Shown here: in pieces, positions 7,501-63,574 of the stretch
Layout of the letters: each line of letters opens with the position of its first letter
Numbering within the stretch: the stretch's first letter is position 1
Assembly (NCBI RefSeq): GCF_019649055.1
Contig: NW_026570246.1
Location: 1,116,001 to 1,180,000, forward strand
Length of the DNA: 64,000 nucleotides
Origin: Paramacrobiotus metropolitanus
Lineage: Eukaryota; Tardigrada; Eutardigrada; Parachela; Macrobiotidae
Direction: 5' to 3'
Translations under genes and position numbers: made by a program
The notes under the pieces: generated by a model
The model's database searches: none
Seen by the model: the letters and a program-made list of their open reading frames with translations, nothing else
What the model was told of the DNA's origin: nothing

Positions 7501-10500
7501 GGTAATTCTGGATGCTCGGATGTTTATTCTACCAAGTGGTGCACTAGAGATTGGCGGTGTGCGGGCAGCGGATGCTGGGAACTACAAGTGTAAAGCCGAG
7601 AACGCTGACGGGAGCAAATTCAGCTCTGTTGGTCGATTAACTGTGGACACTGATCCAGGTATTTGGGCGATATGAATGCTTGATTAAAGCCAGGGATGAA
7701 AAGGAGGTCAAAAGGATCAATGCACAGAAATGCTAGGTGCTCCACTGCCGTTATATAACATGATCCGGAAAGCGATACAATAGCACGTACACTATGCCAG
7801 TGGGTTAGGGATACTTCAATAGCGTGGTTTTTCCCGGAGATTTTGCTTAGGATCATGTATCACTTCAGCGCCACTGCGGCTCGTAAAAAGGATATGGGAA
7901 TCGTTTTTCTCCAAACTTTCATGAGATTTCACAAACAGACCAAATAATGTTAGAACGAAAATTTCTTTTTTGCTGCTTGCATCAATCAAAAGTGGGAATA
8001 CCTAATAGCATAAGCTGTATGCTAAGGGTGTAATGGTCTTTTGGTTTCGTAAAAAAAATTTTAATATGTGATACACACTATAATATCCTGTAATTGCGGC
8101 AAATAATTGTTATTGTTAATTAATTGTTATTTTATCAAGGGTGTTTGCGAATAGGTTCAATACACACAATTAAAATTTCGTATTTTATGTTTTTCTACAG
8201 TGTATGTGTAGATATTTTGCACGTACCGTATTTTGAAGTTTGTTTTTGGCAGATCCAGATGCCGAACTGCAAGCACCAGTATTTTCAATGCGACCAAAGC
8301 AAGTGACTGTGTTACGGGGTGGGAAAGCGGTTATGGAGTGCGCGGCATATGGCTATCCAGTTCCGGCTATTACATGGCTAAAAAATGGACTTCCGGTCGA
8401 TACCAGGAACACGCGATTTTCTATTCTGGGCGTGGGAAATCTCCAGATTGATAATGCACAACTAGATGATGCCGGACAATATAAATGTCGAGCTGAAAAT
8501 TCCGCTGATATAGTGGAAAGCTCGGCATCACTAGAAATTCATGGTAAGCCGTTGTGGTTTGTGATTTCCGCCTTTTTTCCGGCTTTTTAATGCCATGTTC
8601 TTTGTGTGTTCATTAGAAATGCCGGTCTTTATTAAACGACCTGTGGATACCTACGGTCAGAAAGATTCAGATGTGTTGCTGGAATGTGAAATCCGGGGCG
8701 CACCGGAGCCGACAATACAGTGGTACAAAAATGGTGATATGGTCATTCCGAGTGATTATTTTCAAATTGATAACGGGAGGAATCTTCGGATCCTGGGCTT
8801 GGTTAAATCCGACGGCGGAGTGTATCAGTGCTTCGGTAGCAATGTCCAGGGAACAGTGCAGGCCACGGCACAGTTGGTCGTACTGGATGCTGGTATGATA
8901 ATTAGATAATACGGTTTTGGGTTTTATAATATGCTTGTTCTTACAGTCAGAACGTTAAGTAAGCAGTGTAAAATGTATATTTTTGATTTACGGTATGGTG
9001 GAAAATGGCTTGCCGATGGTCATTACTTTGTAATGGTGCCCCGTACTTCCGATTCTGTTTTCGTTATAGATACAGTAACAGTTTTGAATTTTTATTATAT
9101 TCTTTCGTTTTACGTTGTTGTTTACCTAATTGCATTTATTTGCCTGAGTTATATATTACCGCAATTGAGTAAGCTTTTGCTTCCTCTGTTTGTACGTGCC
9201 GTTGCATTATTTTGTGTTTTGGTTGCTTTCGTACAGATGGGACGATGCCTGTATTCCATAATATTCCTGCTCCTCGTGTAGGTTCAGCGTCCTCTTTAAC
9301 TAATGTTCCCTCGTCGCCGCGGAATGTCGTTACGCATCTAATTAGCTCACGCTTCGTAACACTAACCTGGCAAGCCCCTGCTACCACTAATATACCCCTT
9401 CTGACATATTCCGTCTACTACAAACAAGAGGGCTCCACGAGGGAGCGGGTCTTCAACACATCCGCCGCCAACAAGGAGGCCAACATTCAAGGCCTCCGTC
9501 CGGACACTAACTACGCTTTCCGGGTGGTGGCGTACAATCGGCACGGCCCAGGAGAGTCATCGGAAGAAGTACTGGTGCGGACGCATCCTGAAGGTAATGG
9601 TTGTGGTCATTACTGGTTGTTAACATAATTTCTTCATTAAGGCCGTGCGTTCGTTTATCCGAGGCACATATTAAGGCTTTACGTGACTAGCAAGTTAATC
9701 GACCAGAAGCGACTCGCTTGCATAACCTGTTTTGCTGAAAACTTGTAAAAATTCCGCTGTATAACTTCCGCAGATTATTGCATTGTTTTTATTAATATAA
9801 TGACCAGCTCTGATCATACAAAATTAATAGCTCTGTAAAACGTACAGTAATAGATTACGCATAACGACGCGTCACCGATGTCAATGTGATCTCCATACTT
9901 CAAACTTCACGTTCGAAGTATAAGGCATTTGACATCGTAAACAGATGAGCCACAAAATTTACTGATTCAGTAATCAAGGATAATGGATTCAGTTTTTAAA
10001 ATAATTAAATCAAGGACAAAGAGATGGTTGCAACGTGTGGGCTTTTTTCGCATTAATATCGCCACCTGCGCGCTGCATTTTAAGATCAGATTATCAATAT
10101 TAAAGCAAGGTTGCTAATGGACATGGGACTACATGGCCTCACATTTACTTGTTAGAAGGATAATGTTTTGCCATTTGCGGTAACTAGAACATAGGTAACA
10201 ATGCTTTTCACACTTTTAAATAAATAATCTTCTCCGCTATTTGCACGATGTGTTTGTTCTTTGTACAGTCGATGTACCGGGACCGGTGAATAATTTCCGC
10301 GTATATCCCTTGTCCACCACCGAGATAAAACTGGAATGGGACCGGCCTCACCATGGCAGTGGATCCATACAGAAATACAGGATTTCGTACGGGAAAGTGG
10401 GCGCAGTACAACCATCACAAGAACTAGATACCGAAAAGCAGCAGTACATCTTGACGAATTTGAATCCGTACACGGAATATGCGGTAACGGTTGTTGCATT

Positions 10501-13500
10501 TAACGAAAACGGCCCTGGCGTCAGTTCGACCGATGTCCACGTTCGTACTCACTCTGATGGTTAGTGAATTTTTATTTCTTCCATTTCTTCGGCTTTCATG
10601 CAGGTGATGATAAATCAAATAATTAATATTTTCCAAACATTCCAGTGCCGTCTGCTCCACCGGAGAATGTTGTAATTGAGCCAACGAGCGCAAACGTGAG
10701 TTTTGTGTAGAATTTATTGCTATTTGGTTTTTGTATGGATTTCTTGTACAAGAACTTTAAAAGGTTTTAAACTACAAAATGAAATCAAACTGATAAAAAT
10801 GATTGTGGTTTTTTTTCACAGAGTATTACAATTCGATGGGAACCACCGCTCACGGCGTCACAAAACGGCGTAATCACCGGCTACAAAATTCGCTACCGCA
10901 ATAAAAGTACAAAGAAGACGGAAGTGGCTACTGTGGACGGTAACCGGCGGACGCACACTATCACCAGTTTAGAACGGGGTCAGCCCTACCTCTTCCGCAT
11001 TTCGGCGGCCACCGTCAATGGCACAGGTCCACCGACGGAATGGCTGACTGGAGAAACATTCCGCGATGACGTGGATGAATTGAAAGAACCGGGTATGCCA
11101 AAAATAACCCGCGCCCGTGCCACCGCCAAAAGCATTATCATTAGCTGGTCACCGCCCAGTGATTCCAATGTGGTGGTGCGCGGCTACACCATTGGGTGGG
11201 GCATTGGAATACCGGATGTTTACACCAAATTGGTGGATAGTAAGGAGCGGTTTTATTCCATCGAGGATCTCGGGTGAGCGGAAATACACAAATATTTTCA
11301 GTAGTTTCCAGTTCCGGAAGGTGTACACCTGTCAGTGCAGCCACGTGACAGGTTATTTTTACGAAGGCATTATGTAACGGAATGAAATTGCGTAAACCGG
11401 AGAAACGCTTTAGTGTTTTTGGTTTCATCACATATCCAAAACAAAATCAATTATGTACGGATCATTTAGTACCAAACTGTTTTAACGCTATTTTCCTCGT
11501 GCCGGTATTGCGTAATATTGGATATCGTTTCATTTGGCTGGTCTTAACCGTTAATTTGTTTTTCAGAACCCGGTTCCGAATACGTCATAAGTCTCCGAGC
11601 ATTCAATAACATGGGTGACGGAAGGCCAACTTACGAAAGTGTTACAACCCGGCTTCCATCAGGTAAAACCGCAAAACCGGCATACATGAAACTGAAAAGC
11701 TGATTTACATGTATCGGACAAATACAGCAGCTAAATGGTAAAAAAGTATCCACTGACGCTGTCGGCAGTAGCAGGTAAACAAATATTTTATGGAAGTTTT
11801 GACGGACATCCGTGAGCAGCGGATGCCTGCCAATAGTATCGTTTTACTTTCATTACCTAGCAAAACTACTCGTACACTAAAAATATACGTATTCCGTTGT
11901 GCGTTAATAATGCAACACAAACCGGTCAAACGGAAACCGGGTTTACTTACAAACGGATTTTTGTTTTTTGCAGCCCCAGCCGAACCAGCGACAACCATCC
12001 TTCCACCCGTTGGGTTACAGGCACAGGTCATCTCGGAATCCATGATCATTGTACGCTGGACGGACTCTTCGTTGCCCAACGGTCAGCCACCCTCCGACAG
12101 CCGATTTTACACTATTCGCTACTCGAAACTGCATGGTGATTCCCGGCCAAAAACCATTGATTCAACGGATCTGGAGTGTCCTATAAGCGGACTGCGACCC
12201 AACACCCAGTACATCTTCGAAGTCCGAGTGACTCGTGGCGGCATGCAGAGCACATGGAGTTTGAGTGTCGTCAACAGAACGGCCGAAGCCGGTACGTAAC
12301 TAAGTTAACGTTATTAGGATAAGCGGTGATGCTAAAGTATTTTGCCACATATTTTGTGACCTTCATGTTTTCGTAATTTGTACCTTTTCTTCATAAAATT
12401 TTTGTAGTTTTCTTATGGCCGTTTCTGGCTGCTTTAACAGTGCGCACTGTTAGTAAGGTAAAGAGAAAAAAAATTAAAATTTTCGTTAATATCTCCCGTA
12501 ATACTAACTTAGAGTTTTTGTAGCACCGTCTTCGGCGCCGCTGGATCTAACCGTTATGTCCCTGGCCAATAACCCAACCGCTGTGATGATTAACTACTCC
12601 CCACCTGAACTACCTAACGGATTGATAACCGGCTATGTAATTTTTTACACCGTCGACAATTCCCAGCACGACCGCGACTGGGCCGTAGAGCCGGTAGTGG
12701 GTGATAAACTAACCACGGTCATCCGCGGCCTGTTGCCTAACACCAAGTACTACTTCAAAATAACGGCACGCAACAGTAAAGGTTACGGGCCTCCATCAGC
12801 GGTAGTGTCTTTCATCACGGCACCGCCAGATGCGGATCCGCGAGCGTACTCCGATGGTATGAATTCGGCAATCCAGACTTACGAAAACTAATTTTTAATA
12901 ATAATTCACTTTGTTTCATTTTATAAAATAAAAAAAAATATGGCAAAACTGCTTTAAACGAAGAAATCAATGAACGGTTCTTGAAAACGGCAGTCAAATG
13001 CATTATTTTTTATAATAAGCAATAAAATGCTAAATAATATGTAGAAAATGAACCTGTAATTTTGCAAACTTGCGAGAATTTGGTAAAAATAATGTTCAGT
13101 AATAATTTAATGAACTTTAATGAATTTATTAGCAGTCGCTGTAAGTAAGATTACTGGGTTAACGAGAAAGCTGATTTCCAAGCGGCTTAATTAGTAAAAT
13201 TCGTAAATATTTCAATTTATTCGATTATGAAACGGATGCATGCACGCGTCACAATCATCCGTTCCAGTACTTAATTTGTCGGGACTGTAATGTGAGGGTC
13301 GTGTTTGATTTTAGAACTGCTTCAATTTGGCTCGTCCCATGGGATCGCCATGAACACCTTGTACATAATTATCGCCATCGTTGCCAGCGTGACTGCTGTC
13401 GTCATCGTCATAATAATTAGTATTTGCTGTTGGCGGAAACACAAGGCACCCTCTAATCTGCGCAAAGGGTGGGTCCCAAATCCTGTTGTCTAGTGCCGCC

Positions 13501-23464: not shown

Positions 23465-26400
23465 ATGAATTCAAACCTCGGTCCACCACCTGCTACAATC
23501 AAGAACGAGTATGATAGCATTAGCCAGGGCAAGGGCATCCAATTCGATGGTAGACTGCCCATTGCGGAATACCGTCAGACTATACTGGACACGGTGAGGA
23601 ACTCACCCGTTACCCTGATCCATGGAGCAACAGGTTGCGGAAAGACCACACAGATTCCCCAGTACATTTTGGAGAATTTTGTGAGGCGGGGCAAAATGCC
23701 CTATATCGTGGTCACGCAGCCCCGCCGCATCGCTGCTGTCAGTATTGCCCAGTAAGTTCCTGCAGGTCTTTGTTATGAATTTTACTTAAACATTTCACTG
23801 ATGCTTCATGATGTGCCGCTTAAGAACGTGGTTGTGAAAGAGTGCGTTTTTGACGTAATTGAATTCGTAGATATGTGTGCCAGGAGCGTGGTTGGACATT
23901 AGGAGGTCTGATTGGGTATCAGATTGCCCAGGAAAGTGTTCAAAGTGCCGAAACAAGGGTCGTCTACTGCACTCTCGGGGTCCTTCTGGAGAAGCTTGTG
24001 CACAGTAAGAGATAATTTATCTGACTGCTTCAGGGTCTGTATATACAGACCCTGACCGCTTACTGCAGCATGATGATTTATTTTATTTGTATGCGAATTC
24101 TGGATTTCTGTCCTGTTTCACACTATCAAACTACAGCAGTAGTCCGTCGTGCTTTTCATTTCAGGATTTAACTTCATTTAAGCATTGGATAATTTCGATG
24201 TTGAAGTTCTTGATTTTGGTTTTTTGAATTTCAGTTTTCTCGATTTTTTGCCTCTTGTTCGCCAATAATTAAGAGGCTATTATTTATCTGAAGACAAAAG
24301 ACATAGAAGCCGCTTTTGTACACTTGTTTGACGCAACAAGCAGATACAGGCACTGAAAATGAAAAGTAGTTTGACAATTGTGTAACAGATCAAGGACGAT
24401 TGGACTACTATACGCACGTGATTTTGGATGAAGTTCATGAGCGCGAGGAGGAGATGGATCTCGCTTTATTGCTGATGAAACGCGTTTTGAAAGACAAGAA
24501 CTGCCGAGTCAGGTTAATTGTTATGTCAGCTACAATGCACATGGAAAAGTTAGTGGCTTACCTCGACAATCCGCCGGTCATCGCTTTGAATAGCGGACTG
24601 TTTGACGTCACAGTCAAGTATCTTGACGACATCCCTTTCGGAGGTTTCCGCTTTGGTGTATTCTCCCTGGATGACCCGTACATGCAGCCAGTAGTTACCG
24701 AATGTCTGGTCAATCTGGTCGCCTACTTCGACGAGGCGGAGAGAGGCAATCGCTCGACTGAAAGGGGATCGGTGTTGATTTTTGCTCCGGGAATAAAGGA
24801 GATAAAAAGCATTATGCTGCTACTGGAAGGTGAGAGCGCTAGACGGCGAGCAGAGTGGGAAATTATTCCTCTACATTCGACTATTGCCAACAAAGACCAG
24901 CGAAGGATTTTCCAACCGAAAAAAGCGTCAGTGCGACGAATTATCGTATCGACCAATATTGCGGAAAGCTCGATTACGGTTCCGGATGTGAAGTATATTG
25001 TGGATCTCTGCCTGACAAAGCAGCTGGAACGACGGGCAAACACATCGTTTACTGGCTTGAATCTCACCTGGGCGTCGAAATCCAACTGCGAGCAGAGAAG
25101 GGGACGTGCGGGGCGGGTTTCGTCGGGGATTTGTTACCGGTAAGCTCCTTTGTGCTTCCTGCTTCGATACGTTCTCGTTTCCGCTTGTGCTTTAAAAGGC
25201 TTTCTTCGTTTTCCATGCTTCAGATTGTAGAGTGGATTGTGTTTTAATTAATATCTTATTGTATTTCTTTTATTACGGCTGTAAAATTTTCTTGTTTGGT
25301 AAATTGATTTTTTTTTCTTGTTTACTTACAAACTTTTAGATTGGTTCAAAGAGAGTTTTATGACACCCTGCCCTCTCACGCCACACCGGAAATGCTACGG
25401 GTGCCACTACATCGGACGATTTTGAGGGTGAAGAAACTTGGAATTGCCAGTACCATATATGAAATATTGACGGGCGTCATAGATGCGCCTAATCCAAACG
25501 ATATCGAACGCAATGTGCTGGAGCTCATGCAAGCCGAAGCATTGACGGTTCCTGATCATCCCAGTCATGACAAAGGGGAGCAACGAGTCGACGGACAGCT
25601 GACAGCTTTCGGACACGTTATGGCTTCTTTACCGCTGGATATTGCTCTGAGCCGATTGATTATTCTGTCCGTTTGTTTTGATTGCGTCGAAGAAGGTAAT
25701 ACTGGATTGGAAAAATGCCTTTTGAACTTTGTTTATACCTGGCAGTTACACTACTTCATTTAAATTTGAGATACACAAAATGCTTTATTGGTCTGGTGGT
25801 TTCTTAACTTTCTTTTACCACATATATCAGCTATTTGTCCGTCACAGTTGTTTGCATAGTACCTTGACTTTTTAGGAATAATTATAGCGGCATGCCTTGC
25901 GTCGCGAAATTTTTTGGATAGTGGATTCGGGAAGGAAAATGACAAGTACAAAATGAAGCTGGAATGGGACGATGGGCAGTGCAGCGATCCCCTGGCAGCG
26001 TTAGCGGCTTATCGTGCCTGGTATGATCAGAAGAGCACGGTCTTTCGTAGTTCCATTGATGAGGAAAGGGAATGGTGCAACAAATACTCAATTTCGTGGC
26101 ACCGCATTAACGAAGTCTCCGCTCTCGTGACGGATCTGGAAAATCATGTTAAAGAGTTCAGTGTGGGCCATTCCCATAGCTTCCGCAACAGAAAAGCATC
26201 TAAATGGGACACTGCTGGTGATCAGATTGACCAGCGATTGCTGCTCCAGCTGGTAATTACTGGGGCGTTTTATCCGAATTTTTTCCATGGAACCGGCGAC
26301 ACGAAACGGGTGGCCGCCAAGGGTGATGCATTTCTCGATGAACTGCGGTTAGTTGAAAGTTGAAAAATCCTAAGTTGTCAACGTAAATACAGCAGTTAGT

Positions 26401-27887
26401 TTGTTACAATGTGAAATGGTAAATTAGTTAAAATAAGGTGATGGAGGTGTAGTATGACGACTATGTCTTTTGAATTTAATTAACTGTGAGTCGTGACGAA
26501 TATCACAGTAATGCGACGTTTTCGAGTATACAACATTGTTACTGCTGACCTTACACTTGTTTGAATTAGAATTAGCAGTACTTCCTTTTCCAGCAACGGT
26601 CTGTATTAGATTGCTTATGGTGAAACAAACTTACATCAATGGCTTTGAAGTTTGAACATATTTATTTTTTCGATCAGGTGTGTGCAGCTATATGCCCGAG
26701 TATCGGATTCGTCTGTCATCAGCACAAATGGAGTGAAAGCTTTTTTTCATAAAAATATCGGAGTTAATCCTGACAACGAAATTCGAATTGATGAGCAAGG
26801 TGCCATCACGGTCTTCTTCAGCGGAGACAATCCTCGTCAGGTTCCAAAAGCAGTGTACCGGTCTTTAAAACTGCGCGATAACCGGGATATCCAGAAGTGC
26901 ATAGAACCTCCTCGACCCAAATTGATGTTGCAACCACGCAGCATACGAACCGATTCTGCCGCGTCCAGCGCCAATGCCACGTCGAAATTCGAAGTGGTGC
27001 AGTTCAACGGACCCGCAAGCTCACTGGAAATTCGGGAATTCTGTGGAATTACGAAGGGAACGGAATTGAAAGTGACCCGGATGGAACGGTCGTCGGTCAA
27101 CAGCATCACTCTGAATAATGCACCCTTACAGAAGATGAAGCGATGGATTGTGGCCGCTGATGTTTCCTCCAATTCCGTGGTATGGTGACTCTACTGTAAA
27201 AACAGTATTCTTTTAAAATTAATACGCAGTTAACTAAGGTAAAGGGGCAATCCTGTCGGCTCCGCATGATGGTAGGTATTTATATATGAACAAAAAATAT
27301 TGTATGCATTGAGGTGTTATGGTGAGGTGCAGTACTTCAGAGTTTAATCACAAACTAATAACTTTTCAGGAGGATATTAAGTTAGAAAACGCTTTTTGTA
27401 GGAAAACAAGTTAATCCTAGAAAACACGACGTTATTGGAAGGTCGACCGGAGTTTTCGGCCCTAGTCTTCTTGTTGTTTACCAACGCCATCAGTCTGATA
27501 CCGCACAAGGATAACGAAGCAAACGGGAAGTCTAATTATATTGGCATTCGCGGTAGCCTGGATCGTCACCGACGTTTGCTGCGAGATAATAACTTTGTGA
27601 TGTATTTCGACACGGTGATCGATGAAGATATGATGGTGTTTGTCCGTATCATCCGCAACTCTATCCGTGGATGTTTTGGTGCGGACGTGATGAAGGATCC
27701 CATGACCCGGCAAGTGAAAGTCCCGGGGTACCGGAAAGCCATTCGGCACGCTTTGCATATGCTGTTGAACAGTGATTATGAGTTTGTTCCCTGCGCGAAG
27801 AATTCCAAATATGCTGCTAAACGTGATCAGGAAGTTTTTTTCAACGATTTGCATCCGTTTTTTAGCTCACCTTTGAATCATGTGTAA
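23465..27887 (+). CDS. Tdrd9: TDRD9/Spindle-E DExH RNA helicase lacking the Tudor region
   Basis: Helicase of the germline piRNA (transposon-silencing) pathway by family. Exons: 23465-23751, 23871-24004, 24389-25139, 25340-25695, 25876-26347, 26678-27179, 27402-27887. All phases agree and give 995 residues. Helicase motifs in order: Walker A GATGCGKTT, QPRRIAA, DEVH (motif II), SAT, STNIAESSITVPDVKYIVD (motif V), CEQRRGRAGR (motif VI). Family-specific stretches are ERGWTLGGLIGYQ, SWASK-like TWASKSNCEQRRGRAGRVS, and LLQLVITGAFYPNFF. The C-terminal flank (EGRPEFSALVFLLF, then YFDTVIDEDMMVFVRIIRNSI) matches the part that follows Tudor in TDRD9. TDRD9 and Spindle-E are about 1,400 residues. Here the pre-Tudor and post-Tudor parts are fused inside the single exon 26678-27179. 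The ATG at 23465 opens directly before the helicase core. Paralogues such as other DEAH helicases fit less well. Confidence 0.9.
24031..24054. repeat. Perfect 24-bp palindrome in intron 2 of the TDRD9-like gene
   Basis: CAGGGTCTGTAT is followed directly by its exact reverse complement ATACAGACCCTG, with no spacer. It starts 27 bases after the exon 2 donor. It could form a cruciform or a short RNA hairpin, or be a dimeric protein site. No function is known. Confidence 0.75.
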
Positions 27888-28387: not shown

Positions 28388-29476
28388 TCAGTCCACCGTG
28401 AGCTCAGTCTCGTCATTTTCGTTGGGAAAGATGGGCGCATTCGTATTGGAACTGGCTGTGCAGTAGGCCCACTCTTCGCTCGATATCCACACGTCCAGCA
28501 GCGCATCCTCCATCGCTTGTCGGCATCGCCTCATGAACAGCTCCGTCTGCAAGGACTTTATGATGGGCAAATACACCACCTGTTTCATACAATCTTCTAA
28601 AATCTCCGGTGAATAATGGTTCACACCCCGACTAGGAGTTTTTGGCAGTTTTTCCAAGGGAGTATGCTGGAATGTTTCGTGGGATGACTTTTCGAATATA
28701 CGGCTTTTACTGTGGTATCTTTGCTGGAAATCCGCGATGCTGTACGTGTTCAGAGCGCTCAAATGTTGCTTCTTTTCCAGGCGCTTCTCCGCTTCGGCTA
28801 TATCGTAGAGATTGTACGCCTTTATCCCATACTTTTTATACAAAATTCTCTCTTTCGTGGCAAAATCATGCACGACGATGTGCACATGGAGATCAGCGAA
28901 TAGCGGCTGTAATATCGAGCGGACAAACGCGGTATCCATTTTCGTCCAGTCAAAGATAAAAATAAAATTCTCAGTAGCAATTAACAGCACCGCTGGTTTG
29001 TAGCTACGGTCCAATTTTTCGTCATCAGTCCCCGGTTGCGCATTGGCATATCGCCCGTCCAACGCGATATACAGTGCTTGCTGCTTCCTTATGTAGGCAA
29101 TACATCTAGCGAAGGAGGAAGATGAAGTGCTGTCGAGAATCGTATAGAGATGCGGGTATTCCTTCCGGGCTAACAAATCCGGACAACATTCGTACATCTC
29201 GTGCAACAAGTGATCGGAGACGTGGTCAACCGAGGCGATCAGTTCATCGCAGCGTCGCAGGCTCAACGATGGCAAGTCCGTGTTGACGAAACAGTGAACC
29301 AGGGCGAAGGACTTGACGTGCTGTTTGGCTTCAGGCTGACCGTCCAGGTTGGCTGCTTTCCTTCTGGTTGCTGGTTGCGGAACCTGCGTGGCAATCATTG
29401 CAGGCTGCTCCACAATATGAAGGGGAAGTACTGTACTGATCTGCTGCAAATAATCATTCGATACTAACGAGTTCAT
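28388..29476 (-). CDS. RNase D-like 3'-5' exonuclease-fold protein, EXD1-like
   Basis: Single-exon frame of 362 residues from the ATG at 29476 (MNSLVSNDYLQQ). The frame stays open to 29587, but that extension is AT-rich and hydrophobic, more like 5' UTR. The middle resembles the DEDD/RNase D fold of EXD1: ALYIALDGRYA (motif I, Asp kept, the usual following Glu absent), then KPAVLLIATENFIFIFDWTKM, then HIVVHDFATKERILYKKYGI (motif II with Asp), then NLYDIAEAEKRLEKK. EXD1 in mouse and silkworm is a catalytically inactive RNA-binding partner in piRNA biogenesis. Loss of the motif I Glu here fits an inactive protein. The gene is convergent with the TDRD9-like gene, with 500 bases between stops. 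Other RNase D-fold families remain possible. Confidence 0.6.
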   Translation of the reverse strand: MNSLVSNDYLQQISTVLPLHIVEQPAMIATQVPQPATRRKAANLDGQPEAKQHVKSFALVHCFVNTDLPSLSLRRCDELIASVDHVSDHLLHEMYECCPDLLARKEYPHLYTILDSTSSSSFARCIAYIRKQQALYIALDGRYANAQPGTDDEKLDRSYKPAVLLIATENFIFIFDWTKMDTAFVRSILQPLFADLHVHIVVHDFATKERILYKKYGIKAYNLYDIAEAEKRLEKKQHLSALNTYSIADFQQRYHSKSRIFEKSSHETFQHTPLEKLPKTPSRGVNHYSPEILEDCMKQVVYLPIIKSLQTELFMRRCRQAMEDALLDVWISSEEWAYCTASSNTNAPIFPNENDETELTVD

Positions 29477-29917
29477 AGTAAAAAATTTGGAGAAAACCCG
29501 GAAAGAAATATAACAAAGGCAACTGTTATAATAATTATAAATTATGAATATGAACTTATGAACTGTAACAACAGATTTCGCATCCATATCTGGCGCGTGT
29601 TGAAGCCTGTATCGGATCCAAGGCTCAAAAATAATTTGCTTTTTGTCGACAACAATAAAAAAGTTTTATGAGCTCGTGCCGCAACGAGCCTTTTGTCTAG
29701 TGAAGGGACCACTGTCGAGGCGAGCTACTACGGCTAAATAACGCAGCACAGTCTCTAGAAGTATACAATAAAAGTTTTACATTTTCAACTTTAATGTGCA
29801 TTCAAAGGGAAAGAATCTGTTGAAAAAAACATCAATCATTCATAAATAAATAAATGCCCTTGAAGTTGTTAAAAAACTTGAAGCCCGAAAGTAACTATAC
29901 ATACTTAAATGGTCAGG

Positions 29918-53775: not shown

Positions 53776-55861
53776 TTAAGCTTCCTTAAACTGGATGAAA
53801 CGGTGAAACTCTTTCGTCGATGTTCCCTGGTCACTCAGCGCCAGCTTGATCTCATTTTCCATCCGCGCAGCTGCTTGGTGAAATTTCCCCTGGTCACCGT
53901 GGCGGAATTCGCCGACTTGTTTCAGGGCAGCAGTAATTTCCTCCGCTGGAACCACTCGTTCCGGTTTCAGTCCCGTTCCCGGGATGAACTGTCCAAGACC
54001 TTTTCGCGCCAGCATTTTGCCAATATCCAGCTGATCGGCAAACATCGGAAAGCACACCAAAGGAACGCCACAGCTCAGACTTTCCAGCGTTCCATTCCAT
54101 CCGCAATGACTGAGCATTACGCTGGTGGCCGGAGAAGCCAGGATTTCTTTTTGCGGTGCCCAAGGTACTATCAGAAATTTAGCTTTCGCTTCATTGGATA
54201 TTAGTTCCGGTGGAACATGCTGCTCGTGTCCGGCTTTCAAGGACCAGATGCACGGTTGATCAACCATCAACAAAGCTTTTCCTGTGGAAAATAAATTCTT
54301 TACATATTCCCATTAATACATTCTTTACATATTCCCATTAAGAATTTATTCCTTCAGCACCAAATACAAGATACTCCATATAGTCCCATACAATAGGTTA
54401 ATTATTAATAAATAATAACAGTATGCCGGTAATATTATTTTCGCAATGTTTTCTGTTAATTCATTTAAATTTATTGCTGTTTTTGATTATTGTGAAAATA
54501 AATATATGTCATTCTTGGATAGTTTTTAAATGGCAATGGTTATAGCTTTTGTTCGCCAATATTAACGATTATAATCAAACACCAACCGATTTCGTTTATC
54601 TGTTCGGGTTGTGGAACCGTTGCCGAGCCGAAGGAAACATAAATAACCGATCTCTTGTCTTTATCCCCTAACCACTTCTCCACTTCCGTCTGTCCAGTGC
54701 ATTTTACTTCGGGAATAAACGGACCCAAGCAGTAGATCGCGGCTTTACTATCCTTCATCCGCGGATCCTGTAGAAATAAATCCAAATCCTCTTGGTCGAT
54801 GGCCCGGAAGGAATTGCAAACAATGCCGTCCACATCCGGAAGAAACTGACCAATCGGCAGAAATAGCTCCAAAATGCCCGCCATCTGCCCGACCACAGGC
54901 TGGCCGACTTCGTCCGGAATGCGGTGAAAGTAATCGTGATCCTCCAGCGCCACAACCGGTGTTTTATCGTTCAACATCAGAAACCAACGTAATAATATGG
55001 CGGGAGGAGAATTAAAGTAGTAGTATAATATACCGGGGATTTTGTTCCGCATCACGGCTCCTGTTAGGAACATATCGAACAGAATAACATCCACGACGGG
55101 CAGCGATTGTCCGGTACATAAATGCAATTTTTTGTTGCCGTTGCTTCGGGACTGCTGTGTGTTAATGTCTTTCAGGACTGTTTCTACTCCTGGACAGATT
55201 ACGTGGTTAAAATTATCGAAGGCTTCTTTCATATTGTTGGCATGAAATCCACTCTGCAATTGTTACAAAAACAATGCGTGCATTTTTTAAGACTAATCAG
55301 TAAATTAAAGGTGCAATTTATATAAAGCTAGCAAATAAGTACGTTCGAATTCGTATAAAGCGCATATCTATAATTATTATATTGATTGTTTTACATTCAC
55401 ACATATGCAATAAATTATATCAACCTAAATTGAATTTATATATACCTCAGCATCATTACCAGCAAGAAATACGAGTTAGACATTCAAATAAGAATGCGAA
55501 AATAGGTTTAAGTTTTAGTAATGGCTGCACTTTAATGTTTGTAAAAAAGCAATAAAGTATAGCGTGACGCTCCAGTATAATATTATTTTGTATAGTACCG
55601 TAGTATGATACAGTTATACAAGTAGTTATCGTTACGTTACATTGGCTCCGTCCTCGATGTGGAACAGCGTCACGTCTTCGCCGGACTGCACCGAGAGAAT
55701 TCCCGCTCCTGCAGACTTTGAGCTTGGCTTTTGGATACGGCAAATGTTACTGTGTGAAAATGACCAATTCTTCGCGATAATTCCAGCAATGGAATCATAT
55801 GTCCATGGGCAGGAACATTGAGCACCAGCACGTGTTTTCGCTTCGTAGAACTTTCCGCCAT
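53776..55861 (-). CDS. Plant-type family 1 UDP-glycosyltransferase (one apparent frame break)
   Basis: Transfers sugar from a UDP-sugar to small lipophilic acceptors, by family. Exons in transcript order: 55861-55641, 55253-54587, 54281-53776, about 464 residues. The 44-residue PSPG box at 54162-54031 starts WAPQKEILASPA, contains SHCGWNGTLESL and ends in ADQ, as in plant enzymes. Animal UGTs instead carry a THGGxxS-type signature. The N-terminus has VPAHGHMIPLLELSRRI with the His of the plant acceptor site. RSVIYVSFGSATVP precedes the linker. There is no signal peptide and no C-terminal TM segment, unlike ER-bound animal UGTs, so the protein should be cytosolic. In exon 1 the frame moves by one base near the CCC run at 55702-55704, after QSLQER and before ILSVQSGEDVTLF. 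Introns show it is a resident nuclear gene. Confidence 0.8.
54295..54341. repeat. 22-bp tandem duplication in UGT intron 2
   Basis: A 22-base word (starting ATTCTTTACATATTCCC) occurs at 54295-54316 and again identically at 54320-54341, a 25-base period. It lies 14 bases from the exon 3 acceptor. Confidence 0.75.
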
Positions 55862-57280: not shown

Positions 57281-58797
57281 CTAAGTCAAAAACTGTTCAC
57301 AGTGCTGCATCCACCAACGAGAATGACCAATCCATTCCTGCATAAGAGGACATGGATAAATTATCCCGGGATGTGGCAAGTCGTCAGGGTGACACACTAG
57401 CTGATTGTTGTGCATAATCAGCCTGATTTGTGCCCGGCGGGCAGTCGGCGGAACGTGCACATGGCTGGCCGTCACTGTATCTGTAACTTGCATTTGCTTC
57501 CGCTTGGTCTTATATCGGCGATTCTGAAAAGGGTCATTGTAATAATAATAATAATAATAATAATAATGCAGATACATTAAATCGTTTTTTAAATGAATTT
57601 CAAAATCAACTTAAAACTTTACAATGAACTTACTCAACTTTATGTTAATTTTTTGTCCAAACGAAGAACATGTCATAGCTTTGAGACTCCTACAACTTTA
57701 GTGCTTTATCGCTTATATTGTTACAATTATTATTAAAACTGATAAACGAGCAAATGAAAGTTTCTAAAGCTATTAGTGTTACTTGTTACTGTTTGAGTAC
57801 TGGTTACAGTAACAAAATGATGTTTTAAACAACGCTGGTTTCACCCGAGGATTGTGCGATTTCGGCTTACCTGAAACCAAATTTTAATCTGGGTTTCCGT
57901 TAGGGATAGGGCTGCTGCAAGCTCCGCTCTTTCTGGACCAGATAAATAGCGCTGATGACTAAAGCGACGCTCTAACTCAAAAACTTGCGCATGGGAAAAT
58001 GCGGCGCGAGAACGCTTTTTTCTGGGCTTTGTCGAATGTACGAGCGGACCAGCTTCGAGATCTGAATGGCTTTTGCATTTTCTTCCTAAAATAATTTTCA
58101 ACTTTTACCACATTTATACAAAACTCTGATATTAACAGTAATAAAATTCAGTGGTCGCAAATTTTTTAAACAGACTTTACAATCGCATCCTTACAACACT
58201 GAAAACAAACCCTAAAATAAACTGGTACTGAGAAAAATTTATATATTTAAAATTTAAATAGCAGATTTTAGTGTGAAGGATCAAAGTTCCAACTAAGTTT
58301 ATAGATGTGCGTGAATCAGGTTCAATTTGAACAATCCTCTTATGCATCTTGTACTGCCATATTAGCTATAGCAGAAGCGAAAGCCATATTAACTACATCA
58401 GACAAGCAGACAAATCTACAAAGGTCACGGTGTACTACACGGATATGTGGTATGACTGCCATGTCCATATTAAAGTCCGCCGTTCAGTGCCTTCATGCAA
58501 ACATGTTCACCTACCCAGACTTTTGTTTAGAAATTTATCAGGAGAATCCAGTTTTTCGTGTTCCTTCATCATATCGTCGGGTAGTACACTGACGCCTGAC
58601 TGATATTCATCATCCGAAAGGTTGCTGTAACAATCGTCCATGTCGCCCAGCATGTCAGTAGTTCTCCGCTGATTTGGATTCTCAGTTTTAGGGATGGAAG
58701 TGACATCGCTGCTCAAAGATTTCCTACCCGGCACACCAGTGATGAATTCATCAAGAATATCGCTTATCCGAAATGATATTTTGCTGCTGGTCTCCAT
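57281..58797 (-). CDS. bap: NK3/bagpipe (Nkx3-type) homeobox transcription factor
   Basis: NK-class homeodomain protein; in flies it specifies visceral mesoderm. Exons in transcript order: 58797-58515, 58085-57871, 57523-57281, phases 1 and 0, giving 246 residues. The N-terminal TN/Eh1-like motif reads [11 protein letters not shown]. The homeodomain reads [50 protein letters not shown], then [11 protein letters not shown] after the intron. [20 protein letters not shown] is characteristic of NK3/Nkx3. The intron splits Gln50 from Asn51 exactly as in the Msx gene of this window. The short C-terminus ends QHCEQFLT and matches nothing I know. The ATG at 58797 opens just before the TN motif. Confidence 0.93.
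57541..57567. repeat. (AAT)9 microsatellite near the bagpipe intron 2 acceptor
   Basis: Nine uninterrupted AAT units on + (ATT on the transcript strand), starting 18 bases upstream of the exon 3 border at 57523. Length variation here would alter the pyrimidine/branch-point zone of the intron. Confidence 0.85.
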
Positions 58798-61249: not shown

Positions 61250-63574
61250 ATGTTCAAATTTAATTTTTATATTATATTCGTCTTTTATTTCGCGTGCTTA
61301 AATGCGTATGTAATCAACAGAGATCCTACATTTGGAGCATGGCCAAATCGGCTAGTGCCTTATGTTTTCAATCCAGGAGATTACAGCAGTAAGTTTATCA
61401 ACAGCTGATATTTCATAAGACTAGATAAATTTAAAATGTGTATAACTATTGCAATTTGATTTTTTACAAATGTAGAAATTATCAAAAAAGACCGGTGAAC
61501 CACAACCCTACAAACTTATTTGTGGTAAATTTGTATCTGTATAAAAAAAGTTTGCACTCTTAGGTAATGACATGCTGCTGATTCAGTCAGCTATGGCACA
61601 AATCAGTTCCGATACTGGCGGTTGCATTAACTGGCAAAACATTGGAATATTGGGAAATCCATTATATCCCGGACAAAATTTTGTCATAATCTCCAAAGCC
61701 GGAGGCCCCGGGTAAATTGACACTGCCTGGAAGTTAGACCATGACGATCTTTTTACCGAATTTTCAGGGCAGCCTCACCGACATGTTATTCGTATCCCGG
61801 GATGTTGGCTGCTCAGAATGGTGCCGGCCAGTATATGTCCATTCAGCCAGGAGCGGGAGGCTGTATGCAGAACAAGGCGCAGATAATGCGCTTGTTGTCG
61901 TACCTGCTGGAATTAAGACCGGAACACAATAAGCCTAATCGAGACACTTTTGTCACAACAAATCCGTCCGCTCTGAATATTGGTTCGTTTTCAGACCATT
62001 ACGCGACTACGTTGTTAGGGTCTAAAAATTAAACTGCTGTACAGTAAACAAACGCAATCATATATATATACAGTACGATGCTACACGCTAATCATAATTA
62101 CTGTTACTTTTATTGAAATTTTTTAAATTTTAGTTTTATAGGAGAATTGAAGAATTTACAGTGTTTAATTGTGATTGATTGTGATCGGTTCCCGTATAAT
62201 AATGTCGCATGACTTTAGTGAATTTAACATTGTATGTAAATTTCCAGCTGCGGCATCATCGGGTGTGTTCAACAGGATCACCAATGAATCGGCCATTATA
62301 TATAATTCAGCTGAATTTGATTACAATTCAATAACGCTTATTGATCCCTATACGTATAGTGGAACGGGCGCGCCAGTTATCACCTCCAAAGCTAACTTCC
62401 CGATTTATAATTCGGGACGGCTGAGTATCAGGGACTGCCAGGCACTTGCTTACATATACGGATGTAACTCTGCCAACTGCCAAGACGGTATGCAGTTCAA
62501 AAACAACTTGCATATTAATCATACGCTAACCAGTCAAATTTGGAAAAATTTTCACCCCGTGCTTTGGCATAGCTATAATAGGCTAGTAGCCTGCATTAAA
62601 GTATTGTATAATCCTGCATGTCTGCATTTTAGTTTATGGATCCAACAATGTAATCTTTGGTCAACCTGTTACAACAGTACCGTCAGTAACTGTGGTTCCC
62701 ACCGTTGCGCAAACTGGCTTATGCTCCCCAAATTTACAAATCAACGGTGCCTGGAATGATTATAGTCGGGGAAGAATTTATTACCTTAGCGGTAACTTGT
62801 TGTATGGCGTAAGCAGCCAGAACGGGCAGATCATGGAGAACGGTGTGCCGTTAACCAGTGTTTTCCCCAGTGCTCCCAACAATATTGTTTCTGGATACTA
62901 TCAAGCAGGATTAACGTATTTACTCGATTCGGTAATGTTGGAAATTCGCTTTGTGATTTTTTGTCTGATTTAGTCCAATCAAGCTTAAAGAAATATCCTG
63001 TTATACTATTTCAAAGAGTCATTATATTACCGGCTCTGTGTTTTTTAATTTCTTGCAGGTGGCTGCTAACTGCTGACGTTTTTTACAGAATGGAAATGTA
63101 TTTTTGTATCAAAACGGTAATCCCGTATCCCAATTGACGGGTGGATATACCAACATTCAGGGCGCATCAGCCTACGGAAACACTGCTAGTGCCACTAGCA
63201 ACATCAACGCTGTTGGAATTTACTGGGTGAACACAGGCCGATATATTGTTGTTACCGGCGTCCAGGGACAGTCGGCGGCTGTGACCTTAGCTTCGGTGTT
63301 CAGCTCCAACACGGCCGTATCCAGTGACCTAAACAACTATGGGATTCGGGAGATGTACAGCGTGACGGTAAACGGGCAGGAAAGATTAGTATTCCTGTAT
63401 CAACCTACGGACGGACGACCTTTACAGTACTTTGAAGCGGCGCCTTGTTCCACAACAACACTAGTGAATTCTTCCAACCAAGTTTGTTTAAACGTAAGCT
63501 CGTTAACCAGTTGGTCTACAGTTGAGGCCCGCCAGAAAAGGCTATACGATGGTAATTTTACTCTTAGGTTATGA
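61250..63574 (+). CDS. Secreted astacin-family pseudoprotease with a novel C-terminal domain
   Basis: Exons: 61250-61388, 61564-61711, 61768-61982, 62248-62487, 62633-62931, 63089-63574; phases agree and give 508 residues. Residues 1-19 (FNFYIIFVFYFACLNA) are a signal peptide. The astacin scaffold is clear: AWPNRLVPYVF; IQSAMAQISSDTGGCINW; CYSYPG; GCMQNKAQIMRLLSYLLELR then PEHNKPNRDTFV in place of the HExxHxxGFxHE helix; FDYNSITLIDPYTYS in place of the YDYxSIMHY Met-turn; LSIRDCQALAYIYGC at the end. All zinc-ligand His, the catalytic Glu, and the Met-turn Met and Tyr are lost, so it should be inactive. There is almost no propeptide. A Thr/Val-rich linker leads to about 250 residues of Gly/Asn/Tyr-rich repeats (RGRIYYLSGNLLYG, LTYLLDSNGNVFLYQNG) reminiscent of propeller or hemopexin blades. 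The exon 3 donor (GTTCGT at 61983) is weak and chosen by frame and homology. Confidence 0.75.

Follow-up and report, generated by a model that had tools for sequence, protein, structure and literature searches.

A large family of putative secreted pseudo-astacins with an erased zinc site in the tardigrade Paramacrobiotus metropolitanus

The window analyzed here is a 64,000-nucleotide stretch of the Paramacrobiotus metropolitanus genome, in which a CAHS protein finds matches of up to 71% identity (best E = 3.0e-69). Near its end, a pseudo-astacin gene of six exons (61250–63574, + strand) was modelled that encodes a protein of 508 residues, hereafter the window protein. Exon 1 (61250–61388) contains the ATG, a hydrophobic leader judged by eye to be a signal peptide, and a mature-like N-terminus (YVINRDPTFGAWPNRLVPY), and does not accommodate a propeptide. 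Exon 2 (61564–61711) encodes the first half of the astacin-like domain and holds C67. Exon 3 (61768–61982) contributes C102, C128 and the erased active-site helix (QIMRLLSYLLELRPEHNKPNRD), and exon 4 (62248–62487) contributes the erased Met-turn (FDYNSITLI), the canonical C240 residue and the further cysteines C231 and C245. The C-terminal tail domain, for which no paralogue was found in the same genome, begins in exon 5 (62633–62931) and is completed, together with the stop codon, in exon 6 (63089–63574). The window protein is laid out as the hydrophobic leader, the astacin-like domain extending to approximately residue 245 and a tail of ∼260 residues.

All introns of the window gene display GT-AG borders, and the six exons are intact without an internal stop codon, consistent with the intact splicing and frame claimed in a preliminary description of this DNA, whose interval (61768–62487) corresponds to exons 3 and 4 and the 265-nucleotide intron between them. 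The end of exon 3 is ambiguous by the sequence of the gene itself and was settled by the tandem paralogues T1, T3 and T4, in which exon 3 is likewise exactly 215 nucleotides long; T2 has a single fused exon in place of exons 3 and 4. Two other placements of the exon 3/4 junction (62019/62276 and 62019/62219) were rejected because the 215-nucleotide exon 3 and the intron position recur in the same three paralogues. An earlier model of 511 residues (model A), used in the first searches, differs from the 508-residue model at the exon 3/4 junction only. The gene models are splice-aware alignments made without RNA.

The window contains additional coding features. Frames at 9173–12299 (+ strand) resemble fibronectin type III repeats, one of which was scanned and matched Pfam fn3 (E = 4.8e-16); this gene perhaps encodes a guidance receptor. 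A helicase gene at 24370–27887 (+ strand; Helicase_C, E = 5.9e-16) presumably encodes a DEAH-type RNA helicase resembling TDRD9/spindle-E. On the − strand, an open frame of 425 residues at 28391–29665 shows a sub-threshold match to a 3′-5′ exonuclease (E = 3.4e-4), and frames at 53776–55262 are reminiscent of a UDP-glycosyltransferase on visual inspection; a single piece of them was scanned and gave no Pfam match. A homeobox at 57844–58104 (− strand; Pfam Homeodomain, E = 1.4e-17), which we take to be NK3/bagpipe-like, continues near 57500, and the end of its homeodomain seemingly resides in a separate exon.

In the window protein, the residues opposite the astacin zinc-binding helix HExxHxxGFxHE read RLLSYLLELRPE, and SITLI is found opposite the Met-turn sequence SIMHY. 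The corresponding exon 3 and 4 text is QIMRLLSYLLELRPEHNKPNRDTFV (helix) and FDYNSITLIDPYTYSG (Met-turn). The H1, E2, H5 and H11 positions of the HExxHxxGxxH motif are occupied by R, L, Y and P, respectively (RLLSYLLELRP), and the window protein carries neither this motif nor the SxMHY Met-turn by which astacin peptidases (M12A) are recognized as enzymes. The loss of both elements had been proposed in the preliminary description together with the retention of the astacin scaffold and its cysteines, and both proposals hold. The four canonical astacin cysteines (C67, C102, C128 and C240) are all present, from which two astacin disulfides are predicted, and the scaffold is borne out by homology of the family at the profile level; C231 and C245 are extra. 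The preliminary description had also raised an alternative exon 3 or 4 that carries HExxH. A scan of both strands between 61250 and 63577 found no contiguous HExxH (six such strings are encoded in the whole window), so that no alternative exon at the locus restores the zinc site.

When searched alone, the window protein gave no Pfam Astacin match (511-residue model, E up to 10; domain of the 508-residue model, E up to 1) and matched no astacin in the PDB. It exhibits 44–50% sequence identity to T1–T4 and to the further paralogue C16. The Astacin profile PF01400 was matched by 22 of 24 family members at E ≤ 0.001, with a best value of 2.7e-24. In a PDB search with the family profile, the 17 best sequences (E ≤ 3e-12) were 15 named astacin-family enzymes, a 'LOC792177 protein' and a 'Metalloendopeptidase'. 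An hhalign comparison between the family and 12 active astacins from this genome yielded an E value of 5.4e-20 and aligned the active-site helices without gaps. A chance resemblance to astacins was ruled out by this homology via the family relatives. We infer that the domain would fold like an astacin, bind no zinc and be unable to cleave peptides.

With the window protein and four of its relatives as queries, genome searches identified at least 64 related loci in P. metropolitanus. This lower bound is composed of the window gene, four tandem copies (T1–T4; C26:1180–1189 kb) located just beyond the window (L013), 22 dispersed loci from the first search round and 37 loci from the second round, one of which (L065) is represented by the domain end alone. 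Of the first 27 genes to be modelled, alignment A1 contains 24 and omits C40_45k, C102_129k and C446. Sixty of the 64 loci were aligned and included in the trees; L050, L064, L065 and L066 were left out because each is damaged, a fragment or a near-copy. An in-frame stop codon interrupts L045, and L050 and L064 look broken.

The core of the zinc site is absent throughout the aligned family. None of the 60 members has histidine at H1, the catalytic glutamate (E2), the third zinc ligand (H11) or the Met-turn methionine. The H1 position is occupied by lysine or arginine in 54 members and by alanine, glycine or serine in the other 6, and threonine replaces the Met-turn methionine in all 60. The second zinc ligand (H5) is kept in four members (C3_1553k, C3_2563k, C18_1480k and L063). 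The Met-turn histidine is kept in 28: all but one of the 28 rows of a clade supported at 100/99, whose turns resemble YDYCSITHN, together with C3_2563k. The tyrosine that follows this histidine is kept in two. E12 is retained in 58 of the 60 members and R18, D192 and S195 in every one; these four residues are also conserved in 22 other astacins, where we take them to be structural. The C-x-x-[FY]-P-G...G-Q region is conserved in the family as well, and we assume that it forms the rim of the cleft, as in astacins.

The cysteine pattern combines an added residue with scattered losses. Cys231 is observed in 59 of the 60 family rows (the remaining row has a gap) versus none of the 22 other astacins. 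The 55 family rows that are not gapped at position 245 all have cysteine there, which makes no clean contrast because most of the other astacins have a gap at this place (20 gaps and two cysteines). Among the canonical cysteines, C102 is replaced by serine in eight members and C128 is absent in three. C67 is replaced in four rows. Three of these (T3, T4 and L052) have lost C240 too, which would follow from a pairing of C67 with C240; L041, which keeps C240, is an exception.

At the N-terminus, 13 of 27 family genes, including the window gene, have an in-frame methionine 28–34 residues before the tryptophan that opens the domain, a distance with room for a signal peptide and a mature N-terminus but none for an astacin propeptide. 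In the window gene, this distance is 30 residues and FxGD, the aspartate switch of proastacin, is absent; a further upstream coding exon is possible. The other 14 genes display a different distance (48 residues in T1, 39 in C125_59k and 38 in C18_1482k) or have a first exon that was not found. The upstream DNA of six active astacins was inspected, and a methionine and the WPNGG...IP start share one frame in two of them. L096 has methionines 134 and 60 residues upstream with LFHGDI between them, and L097 has methionines 103 and 71 residues upstream without FxGD. The family genes with a readable N-terminus appear to lack a propeptide, unless an unseen exon codes for one upstream, and the loss of the latency segment fits the loss of activity.

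In a tree of 82 domains, a branch with 100/100 support separates the 60 family rows from the 22 other astacins, and the window protein groups with T1–T4 and C16 at 100/99. In a tree built without both motif stretches and with 13 astacins added, degenerate ones included, the 60 family rows are separated from 35 others with an SH-aLRT value of 96. The two alignments are short (149 and 115 columns); the starred level is attained by 32 of the 79 inner branches of the first tree and by 15 of the 92 of the second. The trees are unrooted with the root placed at the midpoint, and L068/L111 were omitted. Given the short alignments and the midpoint root, the trees place the family on one side of a branch, for which one origin is the simplest reading. 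Two of the members that keep H5 (C3_1553k and C3_2563k) branch early in the first tree and have an unsettled position in the motif-free tree, and the other two (C18_1480k and L063) are located elsewhere. Because the H5-keeping members are scattered in the tree, H5 was probably lost more than once and later than the rest of the site.

The genome contains at least 164 PF01400 matches, counted exon-wise. The sample of astacins outside the family consists of 22 sequences (mostly with high Pfam scores, three low-scoring and two from the family searches) and 14 that weakly match a family query. The motif is intact in 26 of these 36 and not intact in ten (L089, L090, L091, L092, L099, L101, L102, L106, L109 and L111), a proportion that is not a genome rate because the sample is non-random and partly picked for weakness; unsampled intermediates may exist. 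The broken motifs, such as HLPLH, HQLLH, RELMH, RQLLH and KALMR, mostly retain more of the site than the family does. Nine of the ten degenerate astacins were placed on the tree, all among the active astacins, and the tenth (L111) is off the tree. L101 (C6:237000–238500) keeps the three zinc histidines with leucine in place of the catalytic glutamate (HLLMHVLGFGHEH), and its Met-turn reads SITH; this sequence clusters with the active astacins and is possibly an intermediate type of loss. L090, L091 and L092 (C36:443k, C36:1087k and C52:533k) constitute a second, separate degenerate group that is nested in the active astacins and has arginine at the second zinc histidine.

The tail of the window protein has no detectable paralogue in the genome, the sole other match having an E value of 1.2, and the modelled T1 and T2 tails look unlike it. 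The T2 tail (L013 2929–5673) is a low-complexity Asn/Pro-rich repeat (PNNNF/PNNNI). By eye, we take the window-gene tail to resemble a four-bladed hemopexin-like propeller, a likeness without statistical support: the tail of the 511-residue model gave no Pfam match to hemopexin (PF00045), and 28 of 1000 shuffles scored at least as high as its half-against-half self-alignment.

Selection was assessed in 22 hand-picked sequence pairs, which are not independent (L036 was used twice). The dN/dS ratio ranges from 0.05 to 0.28 in ten of the 11 family pairs with finite dS; two of these ten ratios rest on high dS values (1.87 and 2.93) and are rough, and two others include a damaged copy (L045 or L050). 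The remaining pair, L064/C164, shows a ratio of 0.78, and the L064 model looks damaged. A control pair of active astacins (L071/L072) gave 0.12. The dS value is infinite in ten family pairs, including all five pairs of the window gene with T1–T4 and C16, and the window gene has no dN/dS ratio of its own because synonymous sites are saturated in all five. In these pairs, a pN of 0.37–0.41 against a saturated pS of 0.76–0.82 indicates constrained divergence, from which we infer that the window gene itself is probably under selection. The selected non-enzymatic secreted protein envisaged in the preliminary description thereby gains support from the family of at least 64 loci, the conserved replacement pattern and the low ratios in ten of 11 close pairs. 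Substrate trapping, matrix binding and the inhibition of active astacins, put forward there as possible roles, are candidate functions. The same description had named a dN/dS near 1 together with disrupted copies in relatives as a refuting outcome. The ratios lie far below 1 in those ten pairs, whereas disrupted copies do exist (L045, L050 and L064).

Taken together, the window gene is very probably a member of a family of secreted pseudo-astacins under selection, and its product would qualify as a pseudopeptidase, that is, a homologous domain without catalytic residues that is kept by selection. An ancestral astacin of the tardigrade lineage would have lost the core of the zinc site (ligands 1 and 3, the catalytic glutamate and the Met-turn methionine) before the family radiated, and ligand 2 and the Met-turn histidine would have been lost later, perhaps repeatedly. 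The latency propeptide would also have been lost, at least where the N-terminus is readable, and at least one extra cysteine gained. The disarmed ancestor would then have duplicated, for the most part under purifying selection, into a family of at least 64 loci. The resulting pseudo-astacin would be secreted directly and carry out no proteolysis, and its conserved scaffold and cleft rim may bind peptides or matrix outside the cell without catalysis. The partner or location of each copy would be set by its divergent tail, of which the orphan tail of the window gene is one example. The binding role is a reasoned guess. A more specific and rather improbable version assigns a function to the lysine or arginine conserved at the first zinc-histidine site in 54 of 60 members. 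This residue would replace the metal as a built-in cation, so that the cleft holds peptide backbones or carboxylates uncut, and the at least 64 metal-free loci, probably derived from one disarmed ancestor, would form a repertoire of secreted peptide- or matrix-binding receptors.

Other readings assign the domain a different role. It could act as a decoy or regulator of the animal's active astacins by binding their substrates or inhibitors, a possibility that deserves some weight but falls well short of being favored. The genome is rich in active-looking astacins, as indicated by the exon-wise PF01400 count and the 26 intact motifs among 36 sampled, and the presumed rim of the cleft is conserved in the family; however, a family of over 60 diverged copies points to many partners and not to a single regulated set of enzymes. 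Alternatively, the astacin-like domain may be a mere structural relic beside a tail that does the work, similar to ADAMs whose pseudopeptidase domain is discarded. The tail of ∼260 residues is an intact stretch of two exons without a paralogue in the genome, and some pseudo-ADAMs shed the pseudopeptidase domain according to the sections of a review drawn on here (PMC11266112). This reading is nonetheless doubtful: the family shares and conserves the astacin-like part and not the tail, the T1 and T2 tails look different, and the constraint in close pairs lies within the astacin-like domain itself.

Decay or residual catalysis would each be a considerable surprise. A degenerating pseudogene or neutral relic is suggested by the few broken copies (the stop codon of L045 and the damaged-looking L050 and L064) and by the single pair with a ratio of 0.78, but the six intact exons of the window gene, the replacement residues conserved over 60 loci, the ratios of 0.05–0.28 in ten of 11 close pairs and the low pN against saturated pS in the window pairs largely contradict it already. 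A hydrolase that is still active through another metal site or without a metal is just as hard to credit. The highly conserved polar residues E12, R18, D192 and S195 would be available for it; they are, however, equally conserved in the 22 other astacins, where they are structural, and all catalytic residues known from astacins are gone in the window protein.

Most pseudopeptidases described in the literature consulted occur as single genes or in small groups within otherwise active families. In this tardigrade, an astacin seems to have been disarmed and its inactive form then multiplied into tens of genes beside many active astacins, which suggests the re-use of the fold on a large scale for a non-proteolytic purpose. 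The family offers a test of whether a protease cleft can become a binding module at scale, and the second zinc histidine in four of 60 members and the Met-turn histidine in 28 of 60 provide a natural series for the course of the conversion. In tardigrade gene lists, annotations such as 'astacin' or 'metalloproteinase' may include many non-enzymes. The consulted portions of a comparative genomics study of two tardigrades count 53 peptidase clusters among those that are tardigrade-only with congruent architecture and list metalloproteinases among the differentially expressed gene families (PMC5531438). The literature searched on astacins, pseudoenzymes and tardigrades, in its partial coverage, yielded no description of a pseudo-astacin family, and novelty is claimed solely against that literature.

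The closest known systems are the astacins themselves (Peptidase M12A, PF01400), which include crayfish astacin (1ast), BMP1/tolloid, meprins and high choriolytic enzyme (3vtg). The family shares domain-wide profile homology with them, and the window protein shares the four canonical cysteines, an RPDRD-like stretch after the helix and the D-x-x-S strand of the Met-turn. Unlike astacins, the family lacks HExxHxxGxxH, the Met-turn methionine and, where readable, the propeptide, and adds Cys231 and a lysine or arginine at the first zinc-ligand position. The partly degenerate astacins of the same genome likewise have no intact HExxHxxGxxH but differ in falling among the active astacins and, in most cases, in keeping more of the site. 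Catalytically dead ADAMs (M12B; ADAM2, 11, 22, 23 and others) offer a parallel as metzincin pseudopeptidases with a substituted zinc site. In the parts of the 2024 review of inactive metallopeptidases used here, pseudo-ADAMs and others are tabulated, with astacins named merely as a metzincin family, and pseudo-ADAMs act by binding and typically retain the Met-turn (PMC11266112). The tardigrade family differs from the dead ADAMs in its astacin rather than adamalysin lineage, in its tens of copies in one genome and in the replacement of the Met-turn methionine by threonine in all 60 family rows.
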